Part shown: positions 3,604 through 45,119 of the stretch, in pieces
Layout of the letters: the number at the start of each line of letters is the position of its first letter
Position numbering within the stretch: position 1 is the stretch's first letter
Assembly: GCA_020002185.1 (NCBI GenBank)
Contig: CM034533.1
Span: 71,728,579-71,792,578, forward strand
DNA from: Paraescarpia echinospica
Lineage: Eukaryota > Annelida > Polychaeta > Sabellida > Siboglinidae
Direction: 5' to 3'
DNA length: 64,000 nucleotides
The notes under the pieces: generated by a model
Database searches by the model: none
Told to the model about the DNA's origin: nothing
Seen by the model: only the letters and a program-made list of their open reading frames with translations
Position numbers and translations under genes: made by a program

Positions 3604-5788
3604 AGTCTAAGGGTGAAGATAGTAAAGTGAGTCTATGAGTGGAGATAGTGAAGTGAGTCTACGAGTGGAGATAGTGAAGTGAGTCTACGAGTGGAGATAG
3701 TGAAGTGATTTTACGAGTGGAGATAGTGAAGTGAGTCTACGAGTGGAGATAGTGAAGTGAGTCTACGAGTGGAGATAGTGAAGTGAGTCTACGGGTGGAG
3801 ATAGTGAAGTGAGTCTACGGGTGGGGATAGTGAAGTGAGTCTCCGAGTGGAGATAGTGAAGTGAATCTACGAATGAAGATATTGGGGTAAGTCTAAGGGT
3901 GGAGATAGTGAAGTGAGTTTACGAGTGGAGATAGTGAAGTGAGTCTACGAGTGGATATTATGAGGTAAGTGTAAGGTTGGAGATAGTGAAGTGAGTCTAC
4001 GAGTGGAGATAGTGAAGTGAGTCTACGAGTGGAGATAGTGAAGTGAGTTTACAAGTGGAGATAGTGAAGTGAGTCTACGAGTGGAGATAGTGAAGTGAGT
4101 CTACGGGTGGGGATAGTGAAGTGAGTCTACGAGTGGAGATAGTGAAGTGAGTCTACGAGTGGAGATAGTGAAGTGAGTTTACGAGTGGAGATAGTGATGT
4201 GAGTCTACAAGTGGAGATAGTGAAGTGAGTTTAAGAGTGGAAATAGTGAAGTGAATCTACGAGTGGAGATAGTGAAGTGAGTCTACGAGTGGATATTATG
4301 AGGTAAGTCTAAGAGTGGAGATAGTGAAGTGAATCTACGAGTGGAGATAGTGAAGTGAGTCTACGAGTGGAGACAGTGAAGTGAGTCTACGAGTGGAGAT
4401 AGTGAAGTGAGTCTACGAGTGGATATTATGAGGTAAGTCTAAGAGTGGAGATAGTGAAGTGAGTCTATGAGTGGAGATAGTGATGTGAGTCTACGAGTGG
4501 AGATAGTGAACTGAGTTTACGAGTGGATATAGTCAAGTGAGTCTACGAATGAAGATATTGGGGTAAGTCTAAGGGTGGATATAGTGAAGTGAGTTTACGA
4601 GTGGAGATAATGAAGTAATTCTACGAGTGGAGATAGTGAAGTGAGTTTACGAGTGGAAATAGTGAAGTGAGTCTACGAGTGGAGATAGTGAAGTGAGTCT
4701 ACGAGTGGATATTATGAGGTAAGTCTAAGAGTGGAGATAGTGAAGTGAGTCTACGAGTGGAGATAGTGAAGTGAGTCTACGAGTGGAGATAGTGATGTGA
4801 GTCTACGAGTTGAGATAGTGAAGTGAGTTTACGAGTGGAAATAGTGAAGTGAGTCTACGAGTGGAGATAGTGAAGTGTGTCTACGAGTGGATATTATGAG
4901 GTAAGTCTAAGAGTGGAGATAGTGAAGTGAGTCTATGAGTGGAGATAGTGAAGTGAGTTTACGAGTGGAGATAGTGAAGTGAGTCTACGAGTGGAGATAG
5001 TGAAGTGAGTCTACGAATGAAGATATTGGGGTAAGTCTAAGGGTGGATATAGTGAAGTGAGTCTACGAATGGAGATAGTGAAGTGAGTCTACGAGTGGAG
5101 ATAGTAAAGTGAGTCTACGAGTGGAGATAGTGAAGTGAGTCTACGAGTGGAGATAGTGAAGTGAGTCTACGGGTGGGGATAGTGAAGTGAGTCTACGAGT
5201 GGAGATAGTGAAGTGAATCTACGAATGAAGATATTGGGGTAAGTCTAAAGGTGGAGACAGTGAAGTGAGTTTACGAGTGGAGATAGTGAAGTGAGTCTAC
5301 GAGTGGATATTATGAGGTAAGTCTAAGGGTGGAGATAGTGAAGTGAGTCTACGAGTGGAGATAGTGAAGTGAGTCTACGAGTGGAGATAGTGAAGTGAGT
5401 CTACGAGTGGAGATAGTGAAGTAAGTCTACGAGTGGAGATAGTGAAGTGAGTCTAAGAGTGGATATGGTGAAGTGAGTTTACGAGTGGAGATAGTGAAGT
5501 GAGTCTACGAGTGGAGTTAGTGAAATGAGTCTACGGGTGGGGATAGTGAAGTGAGTCTACGAGTGGAGATAATGAAGAGCGTCTACGAATGAAGGTATTG
5601 AGGTAAGTCTAAGGGTGGAGATAGTGAAGTGAGTTTACGAGTGGAGATAGTGAAGTGAGTCTACGAGTGGATATTATGAGGTAAGTCTAAGGGTGGAGAT
5701 AGTGAAGTGAGTCTACGAGTGGATATAGTGAAGTGAGTCTACGAGTGGAGATAGTGATGTGAGTCTACGAGTGGAGATAGTGAAGTGA
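3604..5788. repeat. 26-bp satellite array, about 84 copies
   Basis: The basic unit is GAGTCTACGAGTGG followed by AGATAGTGAAGT (26 bp), repeated without interruption for about 2.2 kb. Two variant units are interspersed: one with GGATATTATGAGGTAAGT and one with GAATGAAGATATTGGGG. The GAATGAAG variant begins at 3871, 4547, 5015, 5223 and 5587. The intervals are 676, 468, 208 and 364, all exact multiples of 26, so the array has kept register. No long open frame crosses it. It abuts the 3' tail of the RTE-like LINE. Confidence 0.95.
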
Positions 5789-6889
5789 GAGAGCTAAGCT
5801 ACCAGGTATTTGACAATCACAAACCCTGAGACAACGGACCTGGGCGATGGTCTGGAAAGGGTCAGTACTCTACTGTAGGTATACATCATTCGAGCGAATC
5901 TTGTGCAAAGGTGAAAAATATAATTATTTCTGTGTCGCCACTTGGATGTGCTCGCTTTTACTGGGTAGTATGCAAATCTCGGTGGTTTTCTCATTACATA
6001 GCAGCCATAGCAATGGTGAACAAAATATAAGTGGCCTTGGTCGACGCTTAATATTTTAGCCGAAACATAACGACGAATGATGCAGTCGCGCGATCAGTCT
6101 GTTTAACGTGTTAAACTTACATTCTGAGACACGATATCTTTTAAATACAAATGTCCACTGAATCAACACGCCCCATGCACCATATCACTTTCCTCAACAC
6201 CATATAAACTTCATTTCACGTAATACACAAGTTTAGATAGAACAAATATATAACGTTTATTATTCCGCTAGCCGGACATGGCGGCAGGTAATTTAGCAAT
6301 AATATATCAAATGAAATATATGATAGCAACTACGATCAGATAAATAAATATTGCTTACTGTCTTAGACGTAGTTTAAAATGGTAGTTGAACTCAGAATGC
6401 AACTTTAAACTCTGCACCTGCCATGTACTATATACAGCCAACTACCACATTTGACTGCGCTGAGCAAGTTTTCTCAGGAAGACTCCCGACTCTCTTTGTT
6501 CCTTTCCCAAATAATGTTATAGCCTCAACGCTGTAACACAAGTGGAAGTCCTCTCAAGTTCTCGTGATGCGATGAGATCTCGCAGAGCTACGAGAACTTC
6601 GTGAAGAACCTGACGACTGTTTGATGATTGTGAGACACACATTTCGAACAACAACGAAATATTAACATTCCCAGCTATCGTCCGAAAGGTCGAGCCGTCC
6701 GACAAAATGTCGTAGTTTTGACTGGTTAAAATTAAATATTAATGTAATATAGCACGTGTGCACTGTTATCACAGCATCGGGGTCGGAACACGGGGGGCTG
6801 AAGCTCACCAAACGTTACAACTGTACCCACCTTTTTAAGACTCACCAAAAAACTCCAACTTCATCACGTTACCGAAATGTTTTGGGGGT

Positions 6890-12270: not shown

Positions 12271-12523
12271 TTAGATACAAATTACCCAAAAAGCGTTTTG
12301 TGGGGCCCCTATAAAAGTATATTACTAGGGCCCCTGGGCAATCATCCTATCACAATGGTTCTCACTCCGGCCTACCGATTACATCATGGCCTTCATAGAA
12401 CAACACAACTTGTTTCATTTAACAAACAAATAACAATTTTATGTCAGAATGTACTATGTCTACAGACACAGAAGTGATACGTAACAGAGACGTAAAACGT
12501 ATTCTACATTCATTACAATGCCA

Positions 12524-13153
12524 GGAAAGAGAGACGTTCCTGTGTCACGGTTGTGCGAAGTGTATTCTATATTCATTACAATGACAGGAAAGAAAGACGT
12601 TCCTGTATCACGGTTGTGCGAAGTGGATTATATATCCATTACAATGCCAGGTAAGAGAGACGTTTCTGTGTCACGGTTGTGCGAAGTGTATTCTATATTC
12701 GTTACAATGCCAGGTAAGAGAGATGTTCCTGTGTCATGGTTGTGCGAAGCGTATTCTACATTCGTCTCAATGCCAGGAAAGAGATACGTTTCTGTGTCAC
12801 GGTTGTGCGAAGTGTATTCTATATTCGTTACAATGCCACGCAAGAGAGACGTTCCTGTGTCATGGTTGTGCGAAGCGTATTCTACATTCGTCTCAATGCC
12901 AGGAAAGACAGACGTTTCTGTGTCACGGTTGTGCGAAGTGTATTCTACATTCAATACAATACCAGGTAAGATAGACGTTCCTGTATCACGGTTGTGCGAA
13001 GTGTATTCTACATTCAATACAATACCAGGTAAGAGAGACGTTCCTGTGTCACGGTTGTGCGAAGTGTATTCTACATTCATTACAATGCCAGGTAAGAGAG
13101 ACGTTCCTGTGTCACGGTTGTGCGAAACGTATTCTTGGTGTGTTTCAATTTGT
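12524..13153. repeat. 63-bp minisatellite, ten copies
   Basis: Ten tandem units of exactly 63 bp span the interval. In the + frame each unit encodes a 21-residue block such as GKRDVPVSRLCEVYSIFVTM. An eroded extra copy lies just upstream at about 12480-12523. Because 63 is a multiple of three, a frame open in one unit stays open throughout. Long frames therefore exist in three + frames and on the minus strand (12628-13080). I regard them as by-products of the repeat and not as genes: there is no splice, start or domain context. Confidence 0.9.
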
Positions 13154-17275: not shown

Positions 17276-17936
17276 TGGATCACCGACTGCACTTTAAATA
17301 TACAGATTAGATTTGCACTAACTCTTACACACATCTCTTCTGTTTATGAAATGCTAGTACTTATTAAAAAAACATCTATTTAATAAGGAAAACTGTTAAA
17401 ATATTACATATTTCACCAAGAAATTGTGTACGTGGGTATATCACTAAGAGAGCAGTTTCTCAAACTCTATACAGATCACCTACCTAAAATCCATTAGTTT
17501 ACCGGTGCACACTAGGGGCCGGCTTCATGAAACCTACCACGTGTTTGCTTAAACTCCTGTTTGCTTATTTAAAAAGACGTGCAATTTATTAAATGTAAGC
17601 AAGTCACAATCATCTTAACATTAAGAATGTTTTTGCAGTTTCATGAAACTGGCCACTGCCCATAATTATGATATTTAAAGCATTTTCATTTCTTTTACAA
17701 AACACTAAAAAAACAATATCACTATCGTGCTTGGGTGACCGAATTATTCATTGCGAATATTACACAGAAAATCATTGGTACGATCCGCAATGGCGCGCGC
17801 GACTGCTTGCGTATTTCTATTCAAACAGATAAGGTATATTGTCAATGTCGCCATTTATCGCCCAGTGCACGATCCAAGACCTTGTCTTTGTACTTACTAT
17901 TCTGCCATCGCCACTGCCCAGGTCGATGAGTCTCCC
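17276..17936 (-). repeat. Inverted duplicate of the ATPSCKMT exon 1 end and intron 1, without the Kolobok insertion
   Basis: Read on the minus strand, this segment starts with the last 39 coding bases of ATPSCKMT exon 1 (from GGGAGACTCATCGACCTGGG) and its splice donor. It continues through the first 290 bases of intron 1 to ACATTCTTAATGTTAAG, then through sequence matching 25619-25985. In the genuine intron these two halves are separated by 5.8 kb of transposon; here they join at a single TTAA (17621-17624). Compared with the genuine intron it also lacks about 25 bp near 25705. It has been inserted into the LINE ORF2. Confidence 0.9.
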
Positions 17937-19286: not shown

Positions 19287-19547
19287 ATGGATATACTGCA
19301 ATCGGACGATGGAGAGAAGCCGAAAGAGAAGCCGACGTTGACCAGAACTGGCAAAATACTGCTCGGTGTTAGCGCCGCATCGTTTGTGACAGTGTTCGCT
19401 GTGACGACACCGTTCATACTGCCGGCTCTCAGAAAGTTTTGTCTTCCGTATGTGCCGGCGACCACGCAACAAGTCGAGAATGTCGTTCGGATGCTACGTA
19501 CAAGTTCAGGGAGACTCATCGACCTGGGCAGTGGCGATGGCAGAATA
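19287..19547 (+). CDS. ATPSCKMT: ATPSCKMT exon 1
   Basis: 87 codons from ATGGATATACTG to GGCAGAATA, directly followed by the donor GTAAGT. It holds the membrane segment and motif I of the methyltransferase. The start has G at +4, and the next ATG (codon 69) lies beyond the membrane segment. The last 39 bases are also present, inverted, at 17898-17936. Confidence 0.9.
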
Positions 19548-22500
19548 GTAAGTACAAAGACAAGTCAAGGTCTTGGATCGTGCACTGGGCGATAAATGGC
19601 GACACTGGCAATATACCGTATCTGTTTGAATAGAAATACGCAAGCAGTCGCGCGCGCCATTGCGGGTCGTACCAATGATTTTCTGTGTAATATAGTGGTT
19701 CGCAATGAATAATTCGGTCACCCAAGCACGATAGTGATATTGTTTTTTTGTTTGTTTTGTCAAAGTAATGAAAATGCTTTAAATATCATAATTATGGGCA
19801 GTGGCCAGTTTCGTGAAACTGCAAAAACATTCTTAAAGGAAATAACAACAAGGCATTAGCTAAAATCCGTTTTCCATGTGTACACAAAGATTAACATTGT
19901 ATGTAACATTTGACAACATTAAAAAAATACAGAAAAATACGTTTGTAGACAAAATTCTATTTTAAACCTGTCTGTGTAGAGATTCCCGCAGAAAGTTGAA
20001 ATTTAATGAGCTAGGCGATCACGTGGTATCGTGACGTCAATGCCGACTCGCGGCTTTGTTGACATCTATGCATCGCCATTGTTGTTCTCTCCATTCTCTT
20101 GTAACATCATGGCTAGTGGGAGTTTCGCAGAGTTTCAAGTGAAATCATACGATTTTGAGCCACTAGCGGGAACGGTTACAGCGGATGATTCGTCTAATTC
20201 CGCTCTTTCCGAGCGTTTCAGCGACGGTAGCGAAGAAGATGATACGGAGTCGGACAGTCACAATCATGACAATGTAATGTTCGCTCATGCAACACCGACT
20301 GGTAAGCTTCAACTTCATTATAATGACACATATGGTGTGAAAACTGTCGACAACAACAATTATATCGTTTTAGTACGACGTTATATTATAAAATGCGGTG
20401 TCAAAGCTGTACAGAGAGTTAGCTAGAGGTTGTAGCTAAGTAGGTCATCGGACGAAGTAATTGTAAACAGACTTGTCAAAGACAAACTTCACAAAGTTAC
20501 GAACCGTCGAACGTCGTAAGCATGGTTGTCTGGTTTATGCGGATCGAGTTTAGGACGTTATAGCTACTTACGATATCACCCCTCTGGACAAAACCCACAC
20601 TTTTTTAGTTGGACAGTTGTTCGCGAGATGACCATAATATCATGACATATATAATGACAGCTCTAGATTATCATTATGTCATTTATGTGGAACAATAATT
20701 TTATTACTCTGAGTCTGACACATAACAATATAGCTACTATATAATCAAAATAAACTAAAATAAACATTAAAACAACATGCAGAACAATTGAATAATTATG
20801 GTAATGGGTTATAGCCTGAAGGGTTATGTCCTAGACCTAGAGGTTTAGTGTAACCTTAGGGGTCTTATATGTGAGATGCTACCAGTGGGTATATATGTGC
20901 CCTACGATTATGTCCATAAAAATCATAAGGACATAGCATTTTTAATCACATTTTTTGTGTGACATATTTATTACAAATCCATCAAGCAAGTTTCAGAACA
21001 CAGTTTTACTGGGTTGAATCATTACAAATTCATCAAGCAAGTTTCATAACACAGTGTTACTGGGATGAATCATTCCAAATGTTGGTAACTGTGTATACCT
21101 GGTAACACAATGTGAATCACCACACTGTGCACAGACAATGGTTATAAGCCAAACAACACCCATGGGAATACTTCCCCTGCAGGCAGATGAGAATATGGCT
21201 TCAGCAAATACCCATTGATAAACAAGTTATCTAGTCCATTTTGTTGATCACTTTACCTATGACATGCTAATAAATAGCATAGCTTCACATCTACAGACCA
21301 ATTATTATCTTTACAGGGCAACTTCCCATTGAGCCGAGAAACTGCTGCACTACGACATTGGTTTGGCCAGTGCAGTTTCGGCAACGTGCGAAAAGATGAC
21401 GAAGTGAAGACTCTGCAACCAAGAAGTACCTCTCCCTGGAAGGGCAGCAATCTTTCCTCAAGGGAGTCTTGTTTGTAACACCCTCCTCTGTGTCAGTGTA
21501 CTGGTCGACATGGTCATCGCTGTCACTGTTGCTGCTGTCACGACTAGTCGACTCATTGTCAGAGCAAACATACTCTGGATCTGCAGCAGATGTCACTTCC
21601 TCCCCGTTTTAGTCACTCGAGTCACTAATCGGACCAGTCAACAAACTGCACTGCACACTCGTTGACCTCACTGCTGATGTCACCTGCACAGCAACCTGCT
21701 CTGATGCACAGACTGCTTGCACTCTTCTCGTGCGAGTTGATGGCCTGATGTCAACCTGAAAGCATTTGCTGCTCCTTTTTGGAGTGGAAGCTGTGACTGA
21801 CTCAGGTGTGGAATCCTCTGTATCACAGGAATCCGTACGAGAGCTCTCATATTCAATTGCTGTATCTTCAGATGACCCATTCTTGGTCGACGGTGGACTA
21901 TCTCGAGCTGCTGCCAGAATGTCAGCAAATAACTGAAATAACAAATGACCCTTATAGAATTTGCAAAAAAATAAATTGTTGTAGGTTTCTGACAAAAGCA
22001 AACAAAATCCTGTCTTTTACCATCTTGTCAGAAAGGAGTACATCCATTTGTCTAGTCATTTGCCCAGCTTCCAAGTGTGAACAGACTGCCTAGCTGTGAA
22101 AAATACAAATTAATAAATTAATTTCAAGTTGCAAGGTATGTATTGTTTATTCTATGATAAAAACATCATAAATAATTGATATCACGCTTACAGAATCTAC
22201 ACAGAGACATAGTTACTTTTGTTATGTTACACTTTTATACAAACAATTACCTGGAAAATGTGACAATATATTACTTGTGAACATTTTATTTTTGGTTATA
22301 ACTAATCATCTATTAAATATACAATAGATAGGTTTGCAACTTGCATTGCATTTATTGTTATTGTTTCACAACAAATGACCATTTTCACACTTGGTAGCTG
22401 GGCAACAACCCACATCCAAATGTGAACATATTTATTATTTGATAAATTTACTTGATTTTTTTAATAACATTAAGTTAAAAATCAAATAAATTCATTAATG

Positions 22501-25500
22501 ACATTTTGTAACATCATTAGTAGAATCCTTATCCATTGATATAGTTACTATCATAACAATATGTGACTGCAGACATGAACAATCCTGCAATAATAAATTT
22601 TATAGTCACTATAGGAAGCCTGCTCCAGGAGTGGTGTAATAATAATAATACCTATTAGTAACAATAAGTTGAACAAAGCACAATATAATAACAGAAACAA
22701 TGTAATAGTAACTGACATATAATATATATATACATGTTTATTAATATATGTCGCATCAAAATATAAATTTAATTATGCTTTCTGTATCCTATTGAACTAG
22801 TTTATCCAGGTTTTATGATTGCCAACATCCATCCCATGAATAATGTGGGAGCCGAATAATGGTCCTTGGTATATTTCTGAGCTTCAGTTTAAAAAAACAT
22901 CAGGACTTGTGCCAGTAATTAGCAATGCACCAAGCAGTAAGGTGTAATTACACTGATTGCAATCTATTAAATTGCAGTGACATTTCTTTTGTCTTCCATT
23001 CATTCATGTTATACAGACATAAAATGAAAAATATGTTCTATCCGTAAACGTTGTTAGTAGATAATACAAGATACAATAGTTATATTTTTGTTCTAAATAT
23101 TTATCTCGGTACATACTGTAGTTCCAATTCAAAATGTAATGATAATACCTTCAAATGTAATAGTATATATTGCATGATGTACATTGTCTTCGATATTCAA
23201 CTGTAATAAAATGGAAACTAGGCAATAGCAATATATGACACTGTAATGTAATTCACCATAGGCCTGTGCACTGGAGTTATGAAAATACAAATCAATAAAT
23301 TACTATTGAAATATTAAAAATTCTATAGTAACAAATGTAACAGTACTTGTGTGTTACAATAGTGTGTGTTATGAAAGCTGCTCTCTACTGTAAGAATTCT
23401 ATAGTAACAAATGTAACAGTACTTGTGTGTTACAATAGTGTGTGTTATGAAAGCTGCATCTACTGTAAGAATTATATTTATTGAAAACATTACTTTTGAA
23501 AACTTAAACATAATATATTATTAACTCGATGAATACATACTGTAATCTACAGGGTGTTCAATGTGGTAACCATTCAATATTAATAATAATTAATCACTTC
23601 TACCTGCAAGGTTTACCAATTGCAATGGTGATCAGGGTGATGTTAGGCATGGGTTAATTGCATGGGTTAATTATAGTAATAATAAGTATCCGACATGTCA
23701 CATCCATGTTACCCAGTTCCTGCCATTTCCACCTAGCATGCTTTAATTACCAGTAGATCAGGTTCAGATAACTATTTTAACTGGTGGGAGAATGCAGTGG
23801 GCCAGCTGGAGTTGGCTGGTGTATTTGTTATTCATAGCAGGAAAGACCTACAAAGTGCAATGTCAACTGGTAATTAATTAGATTTGATCTTTGATCAGTT
23901 GACTAGGGCAAACACTACACTTAGTTCCTCAGTCAAGTGGAGGAGTCACAACAAAGGAGTCCAATTAGCTGGATTAGCAGACAGGTGCCAAACACTGTAA
24001 TAAACTGTTTCTACAGAGAATACTGATGGGGGATAATTCTTCAGCAAGTCATTGATGACATAAGACTTTAGTGAGTCATGTGTCAGAGGAGGAGATTGCC
24101 AGCAACTGGTTCCAACTATGAGAGTGAGACAGACCACTTCCTAATTTTATATTTTTTGTTTTAAATATCTAACTTATGCATGGTACTTTATGTGTACATA
24201 CATTTGATGTTGATCAAAATGCATGGCACTTTCATAAAGTCCAAGTATTGTCATTTAAAAAACAACAAATGTTATGTATGAAAAATAATAATTAATTTAT
24301 GCAAATTCAACGTTAAATACATTTGAAAATATAATTATTCTTCCATCTGCAAATTCACATTGTTCTACATCCAAGTATTGCTTCTTACGGTTTAAAAAAC
24401 TTATTATAACAGACTAACCTGACTCGGCAACGAGTATAATTAAAATAATTATTTCTTATTTGCATGTAAAAGTAAATAGATTAATTAAATGCATAACTAA
24501 CAAATTAGCATCAATTAATTTGCTGACGTTTTTGTTTTATTGCCTTACATTCCTGTAACCATGATAATTATAAAAACAGTCACCTGAATCGATTTGATTA
24601 CACTATCAAATTTTCCACAAAACTGAGTATATGTAGATTTATTATAGTAGTATCGTGCATAACTACAACATTTAGAATATAAGATACTTAGGAAGAGTTC
24701 CGTGATATGATTGGAACCAATGGGATACAATGACAATAAGTTGAATAACTTATTTTGACACTTGACACACAAGAGACCGTCCAGTCCAGGCATTATACTA
24801 GACCTACAGAATAATAATAGTAGATATAACATGTAAGAATTACCTTCATTCGTTGCCGCTTTCGGTAAGCAGACCTCGTAAATTCACCACTCGTCGAAGG
24901 AACCTGGTACCCCAAAGAAGCCATGGGTGTAGTTGCTGAGCCGGCTGTAGTGACAGCGGCAGCGGAGCCTGCAGCGGCGACTGCGGCACTGGAACAACGC
25001 TTGCGAGACCCGCTTGCCTTCGACTCGGGCAAAGCGGCCGTCGATCCTGCCCGTGCCGACGCCTGTCTTCTGCGGATTGACGGCATCAATGCAGCTTCTA
25101 CTGCCGGGAATATTGTTGGGACTGCATCGCTTTTCAACGATATTCGAGCACCAGGATATCCAAGGGTTGCCAACATCTCCGGATCGCGATCAAAACAGCT
25201 TTTCTCAAAATGAGCGGAGCAAAGCCGGCTGTGTTTCTTCAATAAAACTGGATCCGTAGGGAACCGAAAAAAATGGTGTGTTGCTGTATGTTTAGAAGAG
25301 TTTGCATTACAACCGAATGCCGCACAATGAACCATGATGATATTCGCATTACACAGCCACCTCTGCTGTCATATTGCTGAGAATGAATGTAAACAAGCGG
25401 TCGCTGTATCGGCAGAGTCAACTCTGACGTCACATCTCGGCATCCCGAAAAGCGCGCCAAAAATATGCATATTCGAAAATGTCCGGATGTACAGCATAAA

Positions 25501-28500
25501 ATGTGGAATTTTTAATTCTTCGATTTTTGGGGATTTTTTTGGCTTGGTGGACATGGAAATATATAGCAGGATCTAATTTAATATGAATTCAAGCAATATA
25601 TGTTTTTATTCCCTTTAATGTTAAGATGACTGTGACTTGCTTACATTTAATAAATTGCACGTCTTTTTAAATAAGCAAACAGAGTTTAAGCAAACACGTG
25701 GCACTAAGTAATTGCATAAATTTAAGTAGGTTTCATGAAGCCGGCCCCTGGTGTGCACTGGTAAACTAATGGATTTTAGGTAGGTAATCTGTATAGAGTT
25801 TGAGAAACTGCTCTCTTAGTGATATACCCACATACACAATTTCTTGGTGAAATATGTAATATTTTAACAGTTTTCCTTATTAAATAGATGTTTCTTAATA
25901 AGTACTAGCATTTCATAAACAGAAGAGATGTGTGTAAGAGTTAGTGCAAATCTAATCTGTATATTTAAAGTGCAGCCAGTGATCTGTGTCTGTATGTATC
26001 ACCTGTTGGAGGGGGATTGTAATGTACACTTCTGTTCACCCCATTTCCAACACCCCGTAATTTCTTAATTCTATCGAATATTATTGATAGTTGAATTTAC
26101 TGCCAATCATACGTGCGGGAACAGAGAGGGCAGGGGGCAGCTGCCCCCCTGAAATTTCTCCATGGGGCTGACATATGGTTAAATGTGAGCGAGAATGTTT
26201 GTTTTTGTGGCAAGCGTCAATGGTAGGTGGAAATCTAAATTTTATGAGACGATTAATGTTAATTTTGTACACTGTGAAAGGTGTGTGCAATTGGAGGGCA
26301 GCAGAGCTGGGGTCGATTACACACTCATAATTACGATTACACTGTCTTGGGAAAAGTTGATTACGGTTACACACTTTAAAAAAAAAAGATTACGATATCA
26401 GTTCTCCGATTACGAATTACGATTACATTTTTTTGGATCAATCTTCATTCCTAAATTTTTATAGTATGTATGATTTGCTAAGGTTATGTCATACAATATT
26501 AACCAGATATACATATGTGTAATCAAAAATGTTGTAAGCAGAATGTACATCGTGTTGTACTTGCACATATCTCACAGTATGTACGTAATAGATTGACCTG
26601 TGAATTTGATGATGAATACATAATGTAAGGCATATTTAATATGTGCAAATGCATAATCAGCATTAGTGACTAATTATTCACGATTCACAAACTACAAACA
26701 AATGAGTATAATCCAGTACATTTATTACTCAAAACACCATCATCAAGAACACTACAGGTAGTGATGTAGGCCTGTCCACTTGCTGATTAAAAGGAGAAAA
26801 AGATAAGCACAAGTGGAGCCACATTGTCTAACAATAATAATAATAATGTTTCATTTCAGAGAAAAGTCCATATGTACATACAATACAAAAATTAAAAAAT
26901 AAATACTCAATCTAAGATTCTAAAACTGTGACTAACTACATTGTTCAGTACGACAGTGTCAACTGTGCAGTTGACCAACTGTAGGCAACTGTTGGTCAAC
27001 TGTGCAGTTGACCAACAGCATACCGCTTGCAACAGTTTTCAATTTGTCATTAGAAGAGGGAGTGGTTCCTTTAGAATGGAAAGAAGCAAACATTATACCG
27101 TTATTCAAAAAAGGTTCGAGAAACAAGTCAGAGAACTATAGACCAGTGAGTTTAACATCAGTGATTTGTAAATTGTTAGAAAGACTAATTAAAGATCACA
27201 TGGTGGATTTTATTGTTAAACAAAACTTGATAAACCCATCTCAACATGGTTTTTTTAAAGCGAGGTCATGCTTAACAAATATGTTATGTTTTTTGGAAGA
27301 CATCACTAAGTGGGTAGATGAGGGATCACCAGTAGATATCGTCTACTTAGATTTTCAAAAAGCTTTCGACAAAGTACCACATCAAAGATTACTGCTTAAA
27401 CTAAAGGCCCATGGCATAGGAAATGGTATAATAAACTGGATAGAACAATGGTTGATTGACAGAAGACAACGTGTAGTAGTTGATGGGGAGGCTTCAAACT
27501 GGAAATCGGTATTGAGTGGGGTACCACAGGGATCAGTATTAGGACCTATATTATTCTTAATATATATCAACGATTTGGATGATGAAATAACAAGCAAGGT
27601 GTTGAAATTTGCGGATGATACAAAAGTGTTTAGAAGGATTAAAATTGATGGAGATAGACAGCATTTACAAGATGATCTTGACAGGTTGATCAAATGGTCT
27701 GAAAAGTGGCAAATGCTGTTCAATTTTGGGAAATGTAAATGCCTCCACACAGGACATGGGAACGAAGAGGTAGAATATACAATGGGGGGTACTGTACTAA
27801 GTACTACTGTAAAAGAAAAGGACTTAGGGTTAACCATTAGTGCTGATATGAAGGTTTCAGAGCAGTGCGGAATTGCAGCTTCAAAGGGAAATCAAATCCT
27901 TGGATTAATTAGGCGAAACATAACGTATAAGGAAAAAGAGCTAATAATACCGCTGTACAAAACAATAGTTAGGCCTCATTTAGAATATTGTATTCAAGCG
28001 TGGAGGCCATATCGGAAGAAGGACATAGATATGCTAGAAGGAGTGGAGAGGAGGACAACTAAAATGATACAAAAACTGAGGGATCTTAGTTACGAAATAA
28101 GCCTAAAAATGCGGTTTAACAACACTAGAGACCAGGAGATTGAGAGGAGATCAGATAGAAGTGTTTAAAATATTGAAGGGTTATGAAAATATTGATAGAA
28201 ATATTTTTTTCTCAGTTAAGAAAGATAGAAGGACTAGAGGACATGAACTTACATTGGCAAAGGAGCAGAGTAGATTGGATATAAGAAAGTTTTCATTTTC
28301 ACAAAGGACTGTAAATGAATGGAACAGATTACCTGCTGATTGTGTGGGTGCTAGTAGCGTGAATATGTTTAAAAATAAAATCGACACATACCTCAGACGG
28401 GCGGGATACACATAGATAAAAGGGTCGGACTCTTGATAAGCCAAAGGGCTTCCTTGTCCACCTGCCACCTAGAGTTAATTCTCTGGGTGGCAATCTTGTT

Positions 28501-31500
28501 AAATCTTGTTAAATCACTTCACAATTGTATTTCACAGGGTAGCAAGCATGACTGAATACAACCAAACCATTTAATCCTTTAGAAGGATTTGTATAATTCT
28601 GTGCAAACACTAGGAGTTAGAAACCAATAAAAATAAATTGCAATTAGCCATGGTCCAGGTATGACCAGGTCAGACCTGAACCAGGCATATGAAGACTCTT
28701 CTGACAAACTGTGAATAAAACCAAAGGATTTAATCCTTCAGAAGGATCTGTGCAAACACTAGCAGTGGCTGGCCAGTGAGCAGTGAGATACCAATAAAAG
28801 TAAATTGCAATTAGCCATGGCCCATTGCTGGTATTACTGTTACAATCTGTTACCATCTGGCTGTCGTTTTCAACTGCCTCAACTAAGACTCTGTTGCTCT
28901 CGAAATTCCTTCATCCCATCCTCTATTCGTCTTCTAAACGAATGATCTGCCTCCTTCCTTCCCCCTCTCTCCAATGCCTGTCTGGCAACTTGAGAATATG
29001 GGTTCATGTGTGTGTGCGCGCACATGCGTGCACGTGTGTGATTATGCTAGTAATTGCACTGTATTCCACCTAGTTAAATAACACCTGTGATGATGAACTT
29101 GTTCCTGTACTGATGGCTGTGATATGTAAATGTAAATTATGTTTCCTAACAACTGGCTGATTGTTCTGTGCTATTTTATTGTAATCATATGTAAATCATT
29201 GAATCAGTGTTCTCAGTTACACATGTGTACTTATTTATTAATTAATTTATTTATTGCATTCTTAAATAGCAAACAACACAAGAGAATTTCCCTATGAGGG
29301 ACAATAAAGGTATTTTGAATTGAATTTGAGTGCACCAGTGTTTCTGTGATTATTGCCTTACAAATAGTTTATATTCATGAATGGTTGCATGCATGCATGT
29401 ATGTATATATATATATATATACTGTATAGAGTTTGAGAAACTGCTCTCTTAGTGATATACCCACATACACAATTTCTTGGTGAAATATGTAATATTTTAA
29501 CAGTTTTCCTTATTAAATAGATGTTTCTTAATAAGTACTAGCATTTCATAAACAGAAGAGATGTGTGTAAGAGTTAGTGCAAATCTAATCTGTATATTTA
29601 AAGTGCAGCCGGTGATCCGTGTCTGTACGTATCACCTGTTGGAGGGGGATTGTAATGTACACTTCTGTTCACCCCATTTCCAACACCCCGTAATTTCTTA
29701 ATTCTATCGAATATTATTGATAGTTGAATTTACTGCCAATCATACGTGCGGGAACAGAGAGGGCAGGGGGCAGCTGCCCCCCTGAAATTTCTCCATGGGG
29801 CTGACATATGGTTAAATGTGAGCGAGAATGTTTGTTTTTGTGGCAAGCGACGATTAATGTTAATTTTTGTAGACTGAAAGGTGTGTGCAATTGGAGGGCA
29901 GCAGAGCTGGGGTCGATTACACACTCATGATTACGATTACACTGTCTTGGGAAAAGTTGATTACGGTTACACACTTGGAAAAAAATGATTACGATATATA
30001 TATATGTATATATACTGGAATTAAAACTATTATGACATGTTTAATCACTGTTTGAAAAAAAAATATTAGGTGTAATCATGTGTAATCAAGTCTGATTACA
30101 CGATTACAGGACACTATTACAATTACAAATACACTGCCTTAGATTACGATTACAATCATAATTGACCCCAGCTTTGGAGGGCAGACATATGGTTTTCTGC
30201 CCTCCCCCCATTAAATGACATGGTTTTCTGCCCCCCTCCCAGTAATAGGCGGCACAGCGGCGAAACATTTTCAACAGAACCCCCCATTTTCAGATGTCAC
30301 AGTCGAGCCAACTGAGACAGCTAAAAAATTTGTCAGTAGTGCTGAAGCTCCGGTAGCCCCCAATATGAATTTTGTTGCCGCGCCACTGCTGCCAATACTC
30401 GATAGTGCACTTTGTCTTCTACACTTTGTGGTCTAGTACTATTGTTATTATTGAGAGATTGTGTGCTGTTTGTTGGAAATACAAATGTTGTTATTTATTG
30501 ATGCAGTGTCAGGAATAATTTACTATGTATTATAATGTTTATCTACTATGACTCATTTGTTGAAAATAGCAGAGTAGCAGACTCATACCAACAATGTTGT
30601 ATCATCTGCAGGTTGTGGAATGTGCCAAAAGGGGTTTTAAGGCCGAGGGTGTGGAGTTGAACCCCTGGCTGGTGTGGTACTCGCGCTGGTCAGCCTGGAG
30701 GTCAGGTGTGGGTCACCTCACTAAGTTCTACACGCAAGACTTGTGGAAGGTTCGTTCGCACTGGGTGGTAGCCAGTAGAGGTGTAATACTACATCAAACT
30801 GTCGATGTTTCATGATAGTTGATGTGATAATAGTGTAGTGTCAATAATTGATGTGATAATAGTGTAGTGTCAGTAGTAAATTGTACTGTCTGTCAATAGT
30901 TATCATTGATAACACACAGAATGATAATTAGTAACTCGAGTTAACAAACTGATTACTAGGGTTACTTAGGCCACACAACAGTGTTCATAAACATGATACT
31001 TATATTTACCAACCCAACATCAACAAGCATCATAAAAAACAGCATCATTCACGAATTCACCATTTTGAACCAACTGCGAGGTGGTGTTACATTTCAGTTA
31101 TGGTTTGGGACTGCTTTTTTCAAGTATTCAGTATTCCATGACACAATCATAATACTATTGTAATGGTTGTGACGCCATCGTAATAGCAGGTGTGATATTG
31201 TTTATTTAATTGAGTCCTTTAGGTATTTCCCAGTTTTGTTCATGATTGCAAGATACAACCAAGTAACCTTTGCACATTAATTGGATCATGGCTGAATGCT
31301 TCCCACAAAAGTCGAGATGGTGTTCAGTTTGAACAGAGGGAGTAAAGTGTAAAGTGTTTTGAGCAGTCCTAAGGAATGGATACTAACTGTGATATATAAG
31401 AACTTTCTTTAAAAGTGCCATTTTACATGTTTGTTGATTAATGCTTTCGAGTCTGCCATGTGCTATATTGGATTTGTTTATCCAAGAGGACAAGATAATA

Positions 31501-32536
31501 GCTAATTGTCCTTTGTCTGCTTGCAGACGAACTTGTCAAAATATGACAGCATTGTTATATTTGGGGTTCCCAACATGGTGAGTATTATGAACAGAGTAAT
31601 GTGATTTTACAATGGTATATTCTAGAAAGATAATTTTTAATTAAATGCAAAATTGTTCAATGTTTTTTATTCAGATGTATTCAAATTTCAAATAACTTAA
31701 ACACATCGGTGTTAATACATAGGTATTTACAATAATTGTTCAAGTAAACTATTAATGTTTTTGCAGCTTTTGATTGATATTATGTGATTGGGCTTGTAAT
31801 GTATGTGTAAGTCATGAAATACACTGACCATCTGTAATTACACTATCCATAATAAAAGTCAATCAACTTATTGGTATTTGCAAGCTACTGTTGAGAGTTC
31901 CATTGGACGATAAAAATGGTCTAAAAAAACACAGTCAATAACTGTCGAATTTAACCGATATAACATGGCTACAAAGACATTATGCACCACGCTGCCCCGT
32001 TCTAATATCCAAAATGCTGATACACTCTCAAGGTGCATTAGTATCTGTGCCGATAGGTATCGTCACTGTTTTCCCCATTTCCCGTGTGGTGGGGACGATA
32101 AACCACCACCCACCCATTTGCAATGTGTTTGGGACTTGTGTGACCATCTCTAGCTTCCATAGTTTCAAACTTAGACATTACCTGTAGAAAAAAGTATAAC
32201 ATTATTTTATGTGTGAGGTTAGAACCAACACATAAGCAAGTTTTAATGCTCTTCTTAGGAGACCATTTTTATTACACCGAAAACCAATTGTGTAAGTGAA
32301 AAAGAAAAGCGATCTGCACAGAATGAAACCGCTTGTTTGCCTTTGTTCTACAGATGGAGCCACTTGAGACAAAATTAGCCAATGAGCTGCAGCCACGTGG
32401 TCAGGTGATTGCGTGCCGGTTCCCGATGCCGACTTGGACGCCGGTAGAAACAGTAGAACAAGGAATTGACTCGGTGTGGCGTTATGAGAAGCCTACAATG
32501 GAACTACCAGAAGAAACGTCGGCCCATTCCCATTAA
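19287..32536 (+). CDS. ATPSCKMT: ATP synthase c-subunit lysine methyltransferase (FAM173B type), four exons
   Basis: The coding sequence joins 19287-19547, 30612-30749, 31527-31577 and 32354-32536: 210 residues against about 233 in human FAM173B. All introns are phase 0 with GT-AG borders. Residues 24-48 form a membrane segment followed by [20 protein letters not shown], the conserved pre-methyltransferase region. Residues 79-87 (DLGSGDGRI) are the SAM-binding motif I, completed by V-V from exon 2. [11 protein letters not shown] (exon 2), IVIFGVPNM (exon 3) and [13 protein letters not shown] (exon 4) are family hallmarks that separate it from the FAM173A/ANTKMT paralogue. The known human enzyme is mitochondrial and trimethylates a lysine of the ATP synthase c-ring; the role here is by homology. 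Nothing is missing, so I expect the gene to be functional despite an 11-kb transposon-filled first intron. Confidence 0.93.
20109..20301 (+). CDS. First exon resembling P2X7-like (P2XR_C domain) proteins
   Basis: The exon starts at ATG 20109 ([20 protein letters not shown]), runs through an acidic Ser/Asp/Glu stretch ([20 protein letters not shown]) and ends at the donor G|GTAAGC after 64 codons plus one base. A YxFEP motif followed by an acidic linker is how many invertebrate proteins labelled P2X purinoceptor 7-like begin, before a Cys-rich DWCxCGxC domain. I did not find that Cys-rich exon downstream, so the gene is partial or decayed. It starts 270 bases inside the left end of the Kolobok element, in the opposite direction to the THAP gene, suggesting that the element carries two divergent-end genes. 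An in-frame extension to 20031 has no supporting signal. Confidence 0.4.
20968..21078. repeat. Short tandem duplication, period about 54 bp
   Basis: ATTACAAATCCATCAAGCAA and ATTACAAATTCATCAAGCAA start adjacent copies that both continue through CACAGT.TTACTGGG.TGAATCAT. The repeat lies inside the Kolobok-like element. Confidence 0.7.
21933..24583. other. AT-rich interior of the Kolobok-like element
   Basis: No exon is evident. A tandem duplication with a period of 76 bp lies at 23321-23472 (units starting TTCTATAGTAACAAATG). The stretch is probably an intron of the THAP gene or non-coding ballast. Confidence 0.5.
24584..24803 (-). other. Possible extra exon of the THAP gene
   Basis: On the minus strand an open stretch after ATTCTGTAG reads [20 protein letters not shown] and ends IKSIQ before GTGACT. 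It has CxxC and FCGK Cys positions. Its reading phase (two bases needed from the upstream exon) does not fit exon A, which ends in phase 0. It is therefore either an alternative exon or a chance frame. Confidence 0.25.
25619..26399 (+). repeat. ATPSCKMT intron segment present in three copies (reference copy)
   Basis: The first part (25619-25985) is found inverted at 17276-17620. The part 25789-26399 is found directly repeated at 29422-29999. Because copy 17276 also contains exon 1 sequence, this is the parental copy and the others are segmental duplicates. From 26302 it contains the left end of the hAT-like element preceded by GAGGGCAG, but not its right end. Confidence 0.85.
26400..26990. 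other. Gene-free AT-rich intron stretch
   Basis: No exon or recognisable repeat was seen. Confidence 0.4.
26991..27016. repeat. Perfect 12-bp inverted repeat at the LINE 5' junction
   Basis: GTTGGTCAACTG, two bases, then CAGTTGACCAAC. A direct copy of AACTGTGCAGTTGACCAAC also lies 39 bp upstream (26960). The structure sits exactly where the 5'-truncated CR1-like LINE begins. Confidence 0.8.
27002..28520 (+). mobile_element. CR1-like LINE, 5'-truncated copy
   Basis: The reverse transcriptase frame 27002-28168 is nearly intact. It reads [61 protein letters not shown], the catalytic KFADDTKVF, and the C-terminal [15 protein letters not shown]. One frameshift near 28110-28140 moves the last domain ([20 protein letters not shown]) into the frame 28140-28415. 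The endonuclease and ORF1 are absent. The 3' end shows a repeated CTTGTTAAAT tail at 28493-28515. The sequence is very similar to 53101-54330, so both are copies of one family. It lies in intron 1 of ATPSCKMT, in sense orientation. Confidence 0.88.
28561..28832. repeat. Imperfect direct repeat after the LINE
   Basis: Two stretches share ATTTAATCCTT.AGAAGGAT, TGTGCAAACACTAG and AATTGCAATTAGCCATGG, about 165 bp apart. No product is suggested. Confidence 0.55.
29422..29999 (+). repeat. Second direct copy of the intron segment
   Basis: Matches 25789-26399 with a few substitutions and a 31-bp deletion near 29851. TA-rich runs lie at both edges (29405-29421 and from 29996). It carries the hAT-like element at the same site and with the same GAGGGCAG neighbour as the reference copy, so the duplication happened after that insertion. 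Confidence 0.85.
29902..30176. mobile_element. 275-bp hAT-like MITE
   Basis: The left end CAGAGCTGGGGTCGATTAC and the reverse complement of the right end, CAAAGCTGGGGTCAATTA, are inverted repeats. Both sides are flanked by the identical octamer GAGGGCAG (29894-29901 and 30177-30184). An 8-bp duplication with CA(G/A)...TG termini is the signature of hAT elements. The interior consists of GATTAC-type repeats and a TA tract, with no ORF. Confidence 0.88.
30612..30749 (+). CDS. ATPSCKMT: ATPSCKMT exon 2
   Basis: 46 codons after the acceptor CATCTGCAG, from VVECAKRGF to TQDLWK. It contains the acidic [11 protein letters not shown] motif that binds the SAM ribose in this fold. The donor is GTTCGT, a weaker match than the other donors of the gene. 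Confidence 0.9.
31271..31412 (+). mobile_element. SINE, 5'-truncated, in ATPSCKMT intron 2
   Basis: Matches the 3' half of the SINE at 44286-44620 from GCACATTAATTG to TATATAAGAACTTTCTTTA, including AAGTCGAGATGGTGTT and AAAGTGTAAAG. The tRNA-like head is missing. Confidence 0.75.
31527..31577 (+). CDS. ATPSCKMT: ATPSCKMT exon 3
   Basis: A 51-base exon between the acceptor CTGCTTGCAG and the donor GTGAGT. It encodes [17 protein letters not shown], which aligns with the SNVVIFGVPQM strand of vertebrate FAM173B. Confidence 0.9.
32354..32536 (+). CDS. ATPSCKMT: ATPSCKMT exon 4 (terminal)
   Basis: 60 codons and a TAA after the acceptor TTTGTTCTACAG. It starts [12 protein letters not shown], contains [13 protein letters not shown] and GIDSVWRYE, and ends in a short variable tail. 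The Met at its start is internal: it follows the final Met of exon 3, as in the MM pair of the vertebrate protein. Confidence 0.9.
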   Translation: MEPLETKLANELQPRGQVIACRFPMPTWTPVETVEQGIDSVWRYEKPTMELPEETSAHSH

Positions 32537-36542: not shown

Positions 36543-39081
36543 CTATAAGTCGCAGTACGGCAGCTGAGTGAGCGAGCCACCAAACCCGTTCTGGACGCGA
36601 GGCTGGAAGGCCTTCGCTGACGTCGGCGACATCGGCTTCGCCGCATAATCGATCACGCGAGACTTGGCCGAGACGAGATACGGCGCGTACGAATCTATTT
36701 GCGACGTGTCGGCGGCGGCCGCGGAGGCTCTGCGTGCTGGTGTATTTTCGATGTACACTTGCTCCGAGTCGAGTAGGTATCCCTTGGCCTCCAGTCCCCG
36801 CAGACGGGACATCTGCCACGTCTTGAGACCGCTACTAGGGACGTTGACTCCGCCGAAAGGTTTAGGTATGGGTTGGTCGACAACGCCTGCCTTGCCGTAC
36901 TTGTCTTGCCACGAGTGGCCCTGTGCCGTGAACACGCCGTAGTTTCTGTTGACGGGAGATACAGGCGACACGGGCGCGGCGGGCGGGGTGACGAGGGAAC
37001 GGGCCCGTCGACGCCGAGGGACGTCGAGGGTGTCAGGGGCTGGCTGTTCCCACGGTCGATGTCGCGGTGTCCAAGTCGGTGTCGAGGCTGTCGCGTCCGT
37101 CACCACCAACCGCGGTTTCGGCTGGACCGGCGGCGGCGCGGGGCGTTGGGCCGGTCCATCCACCTTGTCGACGTCTCTCTCATTTCGCATCGCCTGCCTA
37201 GATGATGAAACCCGGCGTCGTTGATCCGGAAGCTGGAACGGGTACTGCGCTCCTACTGTGGCCTCTCCGGCGTACCCGTTGGTTGATGTTACCACCGTTG
37301 GGTACGCGTTTGATGATGCTACCCCTCCAGGATACCCGCTTGACGACACTGCTCTTCCGCCACACCCGCCTGCTGATGTCGCTGATGCCGGTTGTTGCGC
37401 TGGGACCGCGGACACGCTGTTGAAGGTGTCTTGTGCCCGCTGAGCCGGAGCCGGAGCCGGGGCCGGGGGCGGCGGCTGAGAGGCGGTGATCCCGCCGTAG
37501 CTCGAGGCCCGGGTCCGGTGAGACGTCGTGCCGCTCGACAGGCTCGTGTGACGAGTCGTACGCCATGTTTGCGAGCCGCTCGCTGCACCTTCGCCCGTGA
37601 AGATGGGCAGCCCTTGCAGCAAGGCCTGCAGCTTGCGCAGTTCCGCCGTCAGGTCTGTTGCGTGGTTGCGCGCCGTCTTCACCATCTCCACGTGCTTGTC
37701 GAACGACTCAGGCACGCAACTTTCCACTTGCTCGGCGCCGAGCCCGCACTTTGCCGTGTCTTCGGGCACGTATATGCCAGCCGACAACGACGATCCGATA
37801 AGTGTTCCCATTCCCGAGAAGTAGAACAGCTTGCTGTAGAATTCATCAGGGATTGGCTGGAATGCCGGACAGGACTCGATGAATGTCTTCTTTATCGCCT
37901 TGTCCGTTTCCGTTTCTTTCGGTTTTCTAGCCTCTTCTGCCTTTAAGCGAGCCTCCTCCACTGCCTTTAAGCGAGCATCTTCTTCTGCCTTTAAGCGAGC
38001 CTCTTCTTCTGCCTTTAAGCGAACCTCCTCCTCTGTCTTTAAGCGAGCATCTTCTTCTACCTTTAAGCGAGCCTCATCTTCTGCGTTTAAGCGAGCCTCC
38101 TCTTCTGCTTTTACACGACCCTCTTCTTCTGCGTTTAAGCGAGCCTCTTCTTCTGCGTTTAAGCGAGCATCCTCTTCTGCCTTTACACGACCCTCTTCTT
38201 CTGCCTTTAAGCGAGGCTCTTCTTCTGCTTTCGCTTCTTGTTCTACTTTTGCCCCATCCTCCTCGTCTGCCTTCAGTTCAGGTTCTTCCGCTTTACTTGC
38301 ACCTTCTACCTCTACATCCACACTCTCAATTGTTGCTCTAACCTTGGTACCCTCTTCTACCGCCACTTCATGTGATATGGTCTCCGCCGTTTCGTCAACG
38401 CTAACATCGACTGACATCTGAAATTCGCCAGCAACATCGCTGTCAAGTTGATCCTTTTTCCTGTCTTCCTCTTCGTCTTGTTCCTCCTCCACTTCCGTCG
38501 TGTCCGCGCTCGTCAGCTGAAGAGCGGCGTTCACCTGCAGCTCCGCCGTGAGATCGAGTTCCGGCTCATCAGTAGAGGTGGTAAAACTGAACGACAGTTC
38601 CGGCGTGTCGATTGCCGTCGATTCCGTCGGCTCAGCTTCCGACGTGCTCACCGACACCGGCGATATGTCCATGATCATGGTGTCTGACGCTTCCGACGCG
38701 ACGAGACTCGCGACAGTCTCCGCCGGCTCGGTTGACACGTCTGCTTCATCTGTCGTCACGTCCGCCGAAATCACGAAACCGGCCGCGACGGTCGTTTCGC
38801 TTTCCTCCGTCGCGTCCGTCTTTTCCAGTACTGCGACGACGCTGTCGTCTGCTACGGCTTCACTTTGCTGTTCTTTGCGTTCTTTCATCGTCGTCTTCGT
38901 CGATGTCTTTGTCTTGACGACTTTCTTAGTGGTCGTCTTCTTTGTCGTTGATTTAGATGTGTCCAAGCCGGGGCCAATGTTGAGCTTGCCGATCTTACGC
39001 GGTCGGGATGACACGCTGCTGGTGTTGTTATTATTGCTGTTGCTCGACGCTTGGAACCGCGCAGCCTTCTCTTTGGCACTC
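36543..39081 (-). CDS. Large terminal exon of an unrecognised protein with charged 8-residue repeats
   Basis: An open frame of about 846 codons ends at a TAG (36545-36543) and begins at the acceptor TTTATTGTTCAG; no ATG lies near the start, so upstream exons are needed (two bases of the first codon come from them). Order from the N-terminus: a Ser/Asn-rich and basic segment (SAKEKAARFQ, KKTTTKKVVK); about 170 acidic Thr/Ser-rich residues; about a dozen 8-residue repeats of the type ARLKAEEE (37925-38240), likely a single alpha-helix or coiled coil; a globular-looking block (FIESCPAFQPIPDEFYSKLF, SFDKHVEMVKTARNHATDLT); a Pro/Ala-rich linker (PPPPAPAPAPAQ); and a tail with SWQDKYGKAG and GLKTWQMSRLRGLEAKGYLL. 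The make-up suggests a cytoskeletal or muscle scaffold, but I do not recognise it. The opposite-strand frame (AFKRASSS repeats) is a shadow. Confidence 0.8.
37925..38240 (-). repeat. 24-bp coding repeats (8-residue KAEEEARL units)
   Basis: The coding DNA repeats with a 24-base period. On the + strand each unit looks like CTTTAAGCGAGCCTCTTCTT. Substitutions among units keep the charge pattern (K/R, then EE, then AR), for example KAEEDARL, NAEEEARL and KTEEEVRL, suggesting that the helix is under selection. Confidence 0.8.
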
Positions 39082-39089
39082 CTGAACAA

Positions 39090-41639: not shown

Positions 41640-42293
41640 TGGAAAATAATAATCGTAATTCAGGAGGAACAACCAGTGAAACACCTGTACTATTTTGAAT
41701 TTGGTTAAACAATCGTTATCAATAAATGTTTATAAACATACAAGTGGGTGAAATATGTACTTCGTGCTGACATGAATATATGCAGATTAGTTAGGTATCT
41801 TTAACATATTTCTGAGCTGAGTTTGTGCTAAGGTTAATTATTACTAAACTAAATTAACCACCATTTAAGCGATCCAAAGAAATATGAAACATATGGGGAA
41901 CATGTCCAAATATGTCTAAGTTTGTTTAATCCGCATGGCAATTAGCAAGATTAAATATGATATAAAACGTGTCTGTTGTAGTTTTTGTTTTTTCTTGCAA
42001 ATAAGCTACTGATAAAGAAATAAAAAACATGAATGGTTTATCTACAGTGGCTTAGTTTTATTAAACCGCGAACACTCGGCCAATAATTTATAGATTAAAA
42101 AATAACAGAGCCTGTCTTCACTTACTAAAATGATCGTTTCTCGCAAGAGGTGTCTTTTGTTTTCTTCTTATTCAGTTTCAGGTCGAAATCTAGAATTGAA
42201 GCAATCACACGGTCAAAAATCTCATTTAAAAAGATCTATTTAATATAATTAATTGCAGTAATATACACGTGTCTAGTTAAACGCCGTGTACCA
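41640..42293. other. No gene recognised
   Basis: AT-rich, with no exon evident. Confidence 0.4.
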
Positions 42294-44125
42294 TGGTACT
42301 AGTCCCAGTTCTTTTACGAGACAGAACCCCATGTGCCATGGTAATAGTCCCAGTTCTTTTACGAGACAGACCCCCATGTGCCATGGTACTAGTCCCAGTT
42401 CTTTTACGAGACAGACCCCCACGTACCATGATACTAGTCCCAGATCTTTTACGAGACAGACCCCCATGTGCCATGGTACTAGTCCCAGTTCTTTTACGAG
42501 ACAGACCCCCACGTACCATGATACTAGTCCCAGATCTTTTATGAGACAGACCCCCCATGTGCCATGGTACTAGTCCCAGTTCTTTTACGAGACAGACCCC
42601 ATGTGCCATGGTACTAGTCCCAGTTCTTTTACGAGACAGACCCCCACGTACCATGATACTAGTCCCAGATCTTTTACGAGACAGACCCCCATGTGCCATG
42701 GTACTAGTCCCAGTTCTTTTATGAGATAGACCCCATGAGCCATGGTACTAGTCCCAGTTATTTTACGAGACAGACCCCCATGTGCCATGGTACTAGTCCC
42801 AGTTCTTTTACGAGACAGACCCCATGTGCCATGGTACTAGTCCCAGTTCTTTTACGAGACAGACCCCCACGTACCATGATACTAGTCCCAGATATTTTAC
42901 GAGACAGACCCCCATGTGCCATGGTACTAGTCCCAGTTCTTTTACGAGACAGACCCCCATGTGGCATGGTACTAGTCCCAGTTCTTTTACGAGACAGACC
43001 CCCACGTACCATGATACTAGTCCCAGATCTTTTATGAGACAGACCCCCCATGTGCCATGGTACTAGTCCCAGTTCTTTTACGAGACAGACCCCATGTGCC
43101 ATGGTACTAGTCCCAGTTCTTTTACGAGACAGACCCCCACGTACCATGATACTAGTCCCATATCTTTTACGAGACAGACCCCCATGTGCCATGGTACTAG
43201 TCCCAGTTCTTTTATGAGATAGACCCCATGAGCCATGGTACTAGTCCCAGTTATTTTACGAGACAGACCCCCATGTGCCATGGTACTAGTCCCAGTTCTT
43301 TTACGAGACAGACCCCATGTGCCATGGTACTAGTCCCAGTTCTTTTACGAGACAGACCCCATGTGCCATGGTACTAGCCCCAGTTCTTTTACGAGACATA
43401 CCCCCATGTGCCATGGTACTAGTCCCAGTTCTTTTACGAGACAGACCCCATGTGCCATGGTATTAGCCCCAGTTCTGTCATGAGACAGACCCCCATGTGC
43501 CATGGTACTAGTCCCAGTTCTTTTACGAGACAGACCCCCATGTGCCATGGTACTAGCCCCAGTTCTTTTACGAGACATACCCCCAAGTGCCGTGATACTA
43601 GTCCCAGTTCTTTTACGAGACAGACCCCATGTGCCATGGTATTAGCCCCAGTTCTTTTACGAGACAGGCCCCCATGTGCCATGGTACTAGCCCCAGTTCT
43701 TTTACGAGACATACCCCCATGTGCCATGGTACTAGTCCCAGTTCTTTTACGAGACAGACCCCATGTGCCATGGTATTAACCCCAGTTCTTACATGAGACA
43801 GACCCCCATGTGCCATGGCACTAGTCCCAGTTCTTTTACGAGACAGACCCCCATGTGCCATGATACTAGCCCCAGTTCGTTTACGAGACATACCCCCATG
43901 TGCCATGGTACTAGCCCCAGTTCTTTTACGAGACAGACCCCCAAGTGCCATGATACTAGTACCCAAATCATGAACGAGACAGACTCCTGTCTGCCATGGT
44001 ACTAGTTCCCAGTTCTTGTACGAGACCGACCCCATGTACCATGATACTAGTTCCCAATTCATGTGCGAGACAGGCCCCATGTACCATGGTACTAGTACCC
44101 AGTTCGTGTTCATAACAGACCATCC
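42294..44125. repeat. 45-bp minisatellite, about 41 copies, with higher-order structure
   Basis: The unit is CCATGGTACTAGTCCCAGTT, then CTTTTACGAGACAGACCCCC and ATGTG, with one-base length changes. Landmark variants recur at a constant distance: CCCCCC at 42551 and 43044, and CCCCATGAGC at 42731 and 43224, both 493 bp apart. Blocks of about 11 units were therefore duplicated together. Units after about 43960 are increasingly diverged, as at the edge of an array. Many open frames on both strands are artefacts of the near multiple-of-three period. Confidence 0.93.
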
Positions 44126-45110: not shown

Positions 45111-45119
45111 ACAAAATAC

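Follow-up and report, generated by a model that had tools for sequence, protein, structure and literature searches.

The genome of the tubeworm Paraescarpia echinospica contains a 64,000 nt stretch (assembly GCA_020002185.1, contig CM034533.1, positions 71,728,579 to 71,792,578 of the forward strand; hereafter the window, with positions counted from its first letter) in which the first intron of the gene ATPSCKMT is split by 5778 bp of foreign sequence. This arrangement raises the question of what the insert is, when it arrived, and whether it could have moved by means of its own enzyme. We favor the view, at a probability of roughly 85%, that it belongs to the Kolobok superfamily of cut-and-paste DNA transposons, which target TTAA, and is a very young and full-length but non-autonomous element, probably near the Kol0 lineage. 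This assignment is based on the combination of TTAA target-site duplications, 5′-RR…YY-3′ termini and an encoded THAP finger, coupled with the failure of a piggyBac identity on both termini and protein domain. As a representative of a known type of transposon the insert is unremarkable, and the gene for its own enzyme appears to be broken.

The insert and its empty site in ATPSCKMT

The exons of ATPSCKMT were located with a probe sequence. Strong matches were obtained at 19407-19574, 30612-30752 and 32333-32488, the first of which extends beyond the exon end at 19547, and a weak match (E = 0.015) was observed at 31524-31580. The first coding exon occupies 19287-19547 on the plus strand and ends at a GTAAGT donor. 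This placement of the exons locates the insert within the first intron of the gene, which spans about 11 kb.

The insert, a Kolobok-type transposon at 19837-25614 containing two open reading frames (ORFs) or gene remnants that face inwards, is bordered by TTAA on the left (19833-19836) and on the right (25615-25618), as read at its edges. Its terminal inverted repeats, AGGAAATAACAAC (19837-19849, plus strand) and AGGGAATAAAAAC (25602-25614, minus strand), agree at 11 of 13 bases. The exactness of these ends can be judged from an inverted partial duplicate of the locus at 17278-17936 (minus strand), which takes in intron 1 sequence together with ∼39 bp from the end of ATPSCKMT exon 1 and holds a pre-insertion site. 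Specifically, the reverse complement of this duplicate matches the joined left (19509-19836, plus strand) and right (25615-25984, plus strand) flanks without a break through one TTAA, which is located at 17621-17624. The BLAST alignment scores 939 bits, with 640 of 696 columns identical, and contains 18 substitutions in 658 aligned sites and seven gaps of 5, 6, 1, 25, 1, 1 and 1 bases. Given this score and the recurrence of the same ends across the genome, a chance origin of the match is excluded.

The original prediction, made from the letters alone, was that a TTAA-flanked insert of this length interrupts the ATPSCKMT intron and that an inverted duplicate at 17276-17936 joins the same flanks at a single TTAA. 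The first statement is correct to the base, and the alignment reported above establishes the second for 17278-17936.

Part of the right flank (25789-26398) is present a third time, as a direct copy in the same intron at 29422-29997 (plus strand). The two sequences are 93% identical over 610 columns and 99% identical over the first 300 bp, and thus this stretch of the flank has been copied at least twice. Over the 196 bp common to all three copies, the right flank (25789-25984) and the direct copy (29422-29618) exhibit one difference, the inverted duplicate and the direct copy three, and the inverted duplicate and the right flank four.

Copies and coding content of the element

If the insert is a transposon, then the same termini should recur elsewhere, as the original prediction anticipated, and we searched the genome (1.08 Gb, 3111 contigs) for them. 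For the insert's first 1164 bp there were at least 40 matches at 97-100% identity (974 first-look candidates), and for its last 1215 bp also at least 40 (2213 first-look candidates), the 40 listed all reading 100% after rounding. Thirteen loci were fetched as best matches to the ends of the window copy, near-exact termini being demanded at extraction. Both ends were located in 12 of these, which together with the window copy make 13 aligned copies. One locus (L016), whose inner part appears twice and whose right end was not found in the stretch fetched, was dropped before any counts were made; it is either nested, rearranged or misassembled.

The aligned copies are 5474-5892 bp long and exhibit 99.2-99.9% pairwise identity outside gaps, and all stop at the same terminal bases, which bears out the expectation of shared ends. 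Among these copies, which were chosen by similarity to the window's ends, the termini AGGAAA…TTCCCT are present in 12 of the 13, and L020 begins ACGAAA. Of the 12 copies other than that in the window, L020 deviates from the left repeat AGGAAATAACAAC at base 2 and the remaining 11 have it unchanged. At an internal 76-bp tandem repeat (23315-23477; two units in the window copy), the window copy is about 100 bp shorter than most other aligned copies.

TTAA occurs on both sides at nine of 11 distinct fully read sites, a count that leaves out L013 and L015 because they share the site of L012. Among further copies, TTAA was also found at 19 of 20 left ends (the exception, L039, has TCAA) and at 20 of 20 right ends, although in some cases a left and a right end belong to the same element. 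In total, 34 of the 40 listed left ends (the window copy, the 13 and the 20 further ones) and 20 of the 40 listed right ends were inspected. The sequence TTAA was absent from all queries, and its presence at these sites is therefore independent evidence. Another copy, L023, lies ∼11 kb beyond the end of the window (contig C3, 71801500-71810500) with TTAA on both sides; it carries ∼925 bp extra inside and was left out of the 13 aligned copies.

The insert contains an ORF of 180 amino acids at 24793-25335 (minus strand), probably the first transposase exon, which begins 280 bp inside the right end and reads across a plausible GTAATT splice donor near 24843. This ORF matches the THAP family PF05485 (E = 3e-10, Pfam), includes an AVPTIF box, and aligns with THAP2 of known structure (E = 3.6e-7). 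It also lacks 14 residues in frame, the invariant THAP tryptophan among them, and all 13 aligned copies share this gap, a count read from the DNA of the copies and so including the frameshifted L011 and the residue-changed L021. A public protein, P0001, is 98% identical to the ORF when gaps are set aside (BLASTP gives 88%) and has 14 extra residues after LLKK, including the invariant tryptophan; its match to THAP2 (E = 2.9e-15) is better than that of the window ORF. Furthermore, all 11 aligned THAP relatives retain the tryptophan deleted here. Related THAP exons with the linker are represented in public data by P0001-P0019, plus P0021 from Lamellibrachia satsuma. The occurrence of the gap in every aligned copy suggests that it was probably already present in the founder of the copy burst. 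The ORF is open in 12 of the 13 copies, L011 being frameshifted, and is exactly 180 amino acids long in 10; in a family this young, a reading frame that is still mostly open is to be expected.

An exon-like stretch at 21294-22001 (minus strand), assigned by eye as the probable remnant of a later transposase exon, contains an in-frame TAA (21609-21611) that 12 of the 13 aligned copies have in common, the remaining copy being frameshifted. No homologue of this stretch was found among 653 candidates. Six-frame Pfam scans of the insert, with X at stops, placed THAP alone above chance and matched no catalytic DDE domain and no piggyBac domain. Two weak rows from the Pfam comparisons, KMPT-N (E = 0.16) and zf_Tbcl_Rhp7 (E = 0.089), were judged to be chance matches. 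When a full-length transposase was sought by way of the THAP exon, only two of 2226 candidates were THAP proteins of greater length, and neither has a catalytic domain. The element had been described as a full transposon. This description holds for its length, with exact ends 5778 bp apart, and fails for its working parts, given the lost tryptophan, the shared stop codon and the lack of a recognized catalytic domain.

These characteristics indicate that the insert is most likely a non-autonomous element amplified very recently by transposase supplied in trans. It is unlikely, in comparison, that the element is autonomous and encodes an intron-split transposase whose catalytic exons merely went unrecognized. 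Such an arrangement would account for the plausible splice donor in the THAP ORF and for exon-like sequence further along the same strand (22001-21294), and the domain scans were made without a Kolobok-specific profile. However, an enzyme gene of this kind would have to function despite a deleted invariant tryptophan in 13 of 13 copies and a common TAA in 12 of 13, and neither the six-frame scans nor the 653 candidates for the second stretch revealed a catalytic match or a homologue.

A different function for the damaged ORF can also be envisaged. Truncated P-element proteins damp the full transposase, and the tryptophan-less THAP ORF might likewise be a working, truncated transposase-like protein, with two CRE-type TGACGTCA boxes that would drive both inward genes or be occupied to regulate them. 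One TGACGTCA palindrome is located at 20032-20039, 196 bp from the left end and ∼70 bp before a short plus-strand ORF (20109-20426); the other, at 25425-25432, lies 183 bp inside the right end and precedes the THAP ORF by 90 bp. The sequence is confined to these two nearly symmetric sites in the window, where base composition predicts 0.8 occurrences, and both are kept in 13 of 13 aligned copies. The plus-strand ORF is frameshifted after ∼50 residues in seven of the 13 copies. Judged by eye, it resembles the start of the accessory protein KolX, of which it may be a fragment; no profile confirmed this likeness, and Pfam and the PDB gave no support for the assignment. We consider such a regulatory role improbable.

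Several points weigh against recent amplification in trans. An autonomous partner sharing these ends was not seen among the copies examined, a negative that has no genome-wide search with P0001 behind it. At two of the 11 distinct sites the TTAA is imperfect on one flank (ATAA on the left of L010, TTAT on the right of L017), and three of the 13 aligned copies (L012, L013 and L015) sit at one insertion site. Older, divergent and truncated relatives are under-sampled as a result of choosing copies by their match to the window's ends and requiring near-exact termini, and the family may therefore look younger and tidier than it is. Finally, we know of no Kolobok transposase model in Pfam, and the missing catalytic domain thus rests on the lack of a match together with stops and frameshifts.

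The three copies at one site have identical flanks. Two lie on contig C4, separated by 21 kb, and the third is on a small contig; either a segment containing the element was duplicated, or the repetition arose in the assembly.

Order of events at the locus

The original prediction held that the locus was duplicated before the transposon arrived, and two lines of evidence support this order. The first is the empty TTAA site in the duplicate. The second is the age of the insert, which was estimated from a private-substitution comparison that used 10 copies, with L013 and L015 again omitted. The insert differs from the majority of 10 other copies at 22 of 5767 sites, and 10 of these differences are private to it, compared with 18 substitutions in 658 sites between the duplicates (10/5767 versus 18/658; Fisher p = 6e-12 on raw counts). 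If intron and insert evolve at similar rates and gene conversion has played no part, ∼79 private substitutions are expected of an insert as old as the duplication, where the divergence of the duplicates has been halved to one lineage. Even the full 22 differences from the majority fall far below this expectation. The insert is thus much younger than the duplication, which supports, independently of the empty site, that the duplication came first.

The inverted duplicate might instead be an assembly artefact in which the other haplotype, free of the transposon, was misplaced alongside. Contigs of the Paraescarpia assembly were joined by Hi-C (PMC8476170), and a recent insertion would naturally differ between haplotypes. 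However, the duplicate differs from the flanks by 2.7% substitutions plus seven gaps, whereas the heterozygosity reported for Paraescarpia echinospica is 0.63% (PMC8476170). The duplicate is also cut within exon 1 and adjoins unrelated sequence, the 64-kb window is without any N, and a third partial copy of the flank is present at 29422. An artefact of this type is accordingly improbable in our estimation.

A reversal of the order, with insertion first and the 17.6-kb site left as the scar of a precise excision from the duplicated copy, is more doubtful still. Excision of piggyBac-type TTAA transposons is seamless, so that an empty TTAA alone leaves the order unfixed. Against this, the insert carries 10 private substitutions where ∼79 are expected at the age of the duplication. 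Moreover, excision of KolobokP is described as removing 1-5 flanking bases (PMC9587614), and the 17.6-kb site is intact.

We therefore return to duplication followed by insertion in trans, for which the following series of steps can be proposed. Transposase from an autonomous relative would have recognized the AGGRAATAAMAAC ends, excised a copy located elsewhere and pasted it into a TTAA of ATPSCKMT intron 1, thereby duplicating the TTAA. The insertion would have postdated the inverted partial exon/intron duplication, through which the target was already present a second time, 2 kb upstream.

Relation to known transposons and setting in the window

Traits described for the Kolobok superfamily include TTAA duplications, RR…YY termini, a THAP finger with C2CH, P-W-F and AVPTIF elements, and a DDE domain with an H2CH finger (PMC6004289, PMC9587614). 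The Kol0 lineage is described as encoding a DDE transposase and the accessory KolX, a second protein resembling the P2X7 ballast (PMC9587614). The window element resembles Kol0 (Kolobok-1_XT; XKol of Xenopus) in its TTAA duplications, in AGG-type termini such as AGGAAATGGCAAGCCA of XKol A2, and in a THAP finger with an AVPTIF box; full-length XKol elements are given as 6.8-13.9 kb (PMC6004289). In contrast to Kol0, its THAP finger is missing 14 residues, among them the invariant tryptophan, its catalytic part is unrecognizable, and KolX is at most a fragment.

Similar comparisons can be made with other members of the superfamily. The T2-MITEs of Xenopus are likewise non-autonomous, with TTAA targets and AGGRR termini, and are presumably moved by Kolobok transposases (PMC6004289). 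These elements are short, however, whereas the window element is 5.8 kb and retains gene remnants. KolobokP and KolobokD belong to the same superfamily and share RR…YY termini (PMC9587614), and KolobokP is listed for Paraescarpia echinospica itself (PMC9587614). Unlike KolobokP, the insert has no long terminal direct repeats (∼450 or 660 bp) between its ends, and unlike both KolobokP and KolobokD, it matched no His-Me or DnaQ nuclease domain in the Pfam scans.

A non-autonomous piggyBac element is hardly credible, as the original prediction also maintained: TTAA target duplications are common to piggyBac (PMC9587614), but the AGG…CCT termini are of the RR…YY type that is contrasted with piggyBac (PMC9587614), a THAP finger, which piggyBac lacks, was found at E = 3e-10, and six-frame scans gave no piggyBac transposase domain.

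Elsewhere in the window, a non-LTR (long terminal repeat) retrotransposon reverse transcriptase is encoded at 27002-28168 (RVT_1, E = 6e-34), and the segment 27278-28511 recurs at 53086-54324 with 91% identity. Probable remnants of non-LTR retrotransposons occupy 516-3405, where 516-1094 encodes an endonuclease domain (PF03372, E = 1.3e-10). Five large minisatellite arrays are located at 3604-5789, 12499-13149, 42280-44159, 45104-46215 and 47167-48890, with units, read from BLAST offsets, of ∼26, 63, 45, 64 and 101 bp, respectively. Also, a minus-strand ORF of 848 amino acids at 36543-39089 encodes an E/A/R-rich repeat (EEEARLKAEEEAR…) that matched no Pfam family.

The insertion in ATPSCKMT is a clean case in which one locus reveals the ends of a transposon, its target and the order of events. 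Together with its genomic copies, it records how a large, non-autonomous Kolobok element multiplied in a very recent burst in a deep-sea tubeworm. Such a burst implies that a helper transposase is active in the same genome now, or was until very recently.

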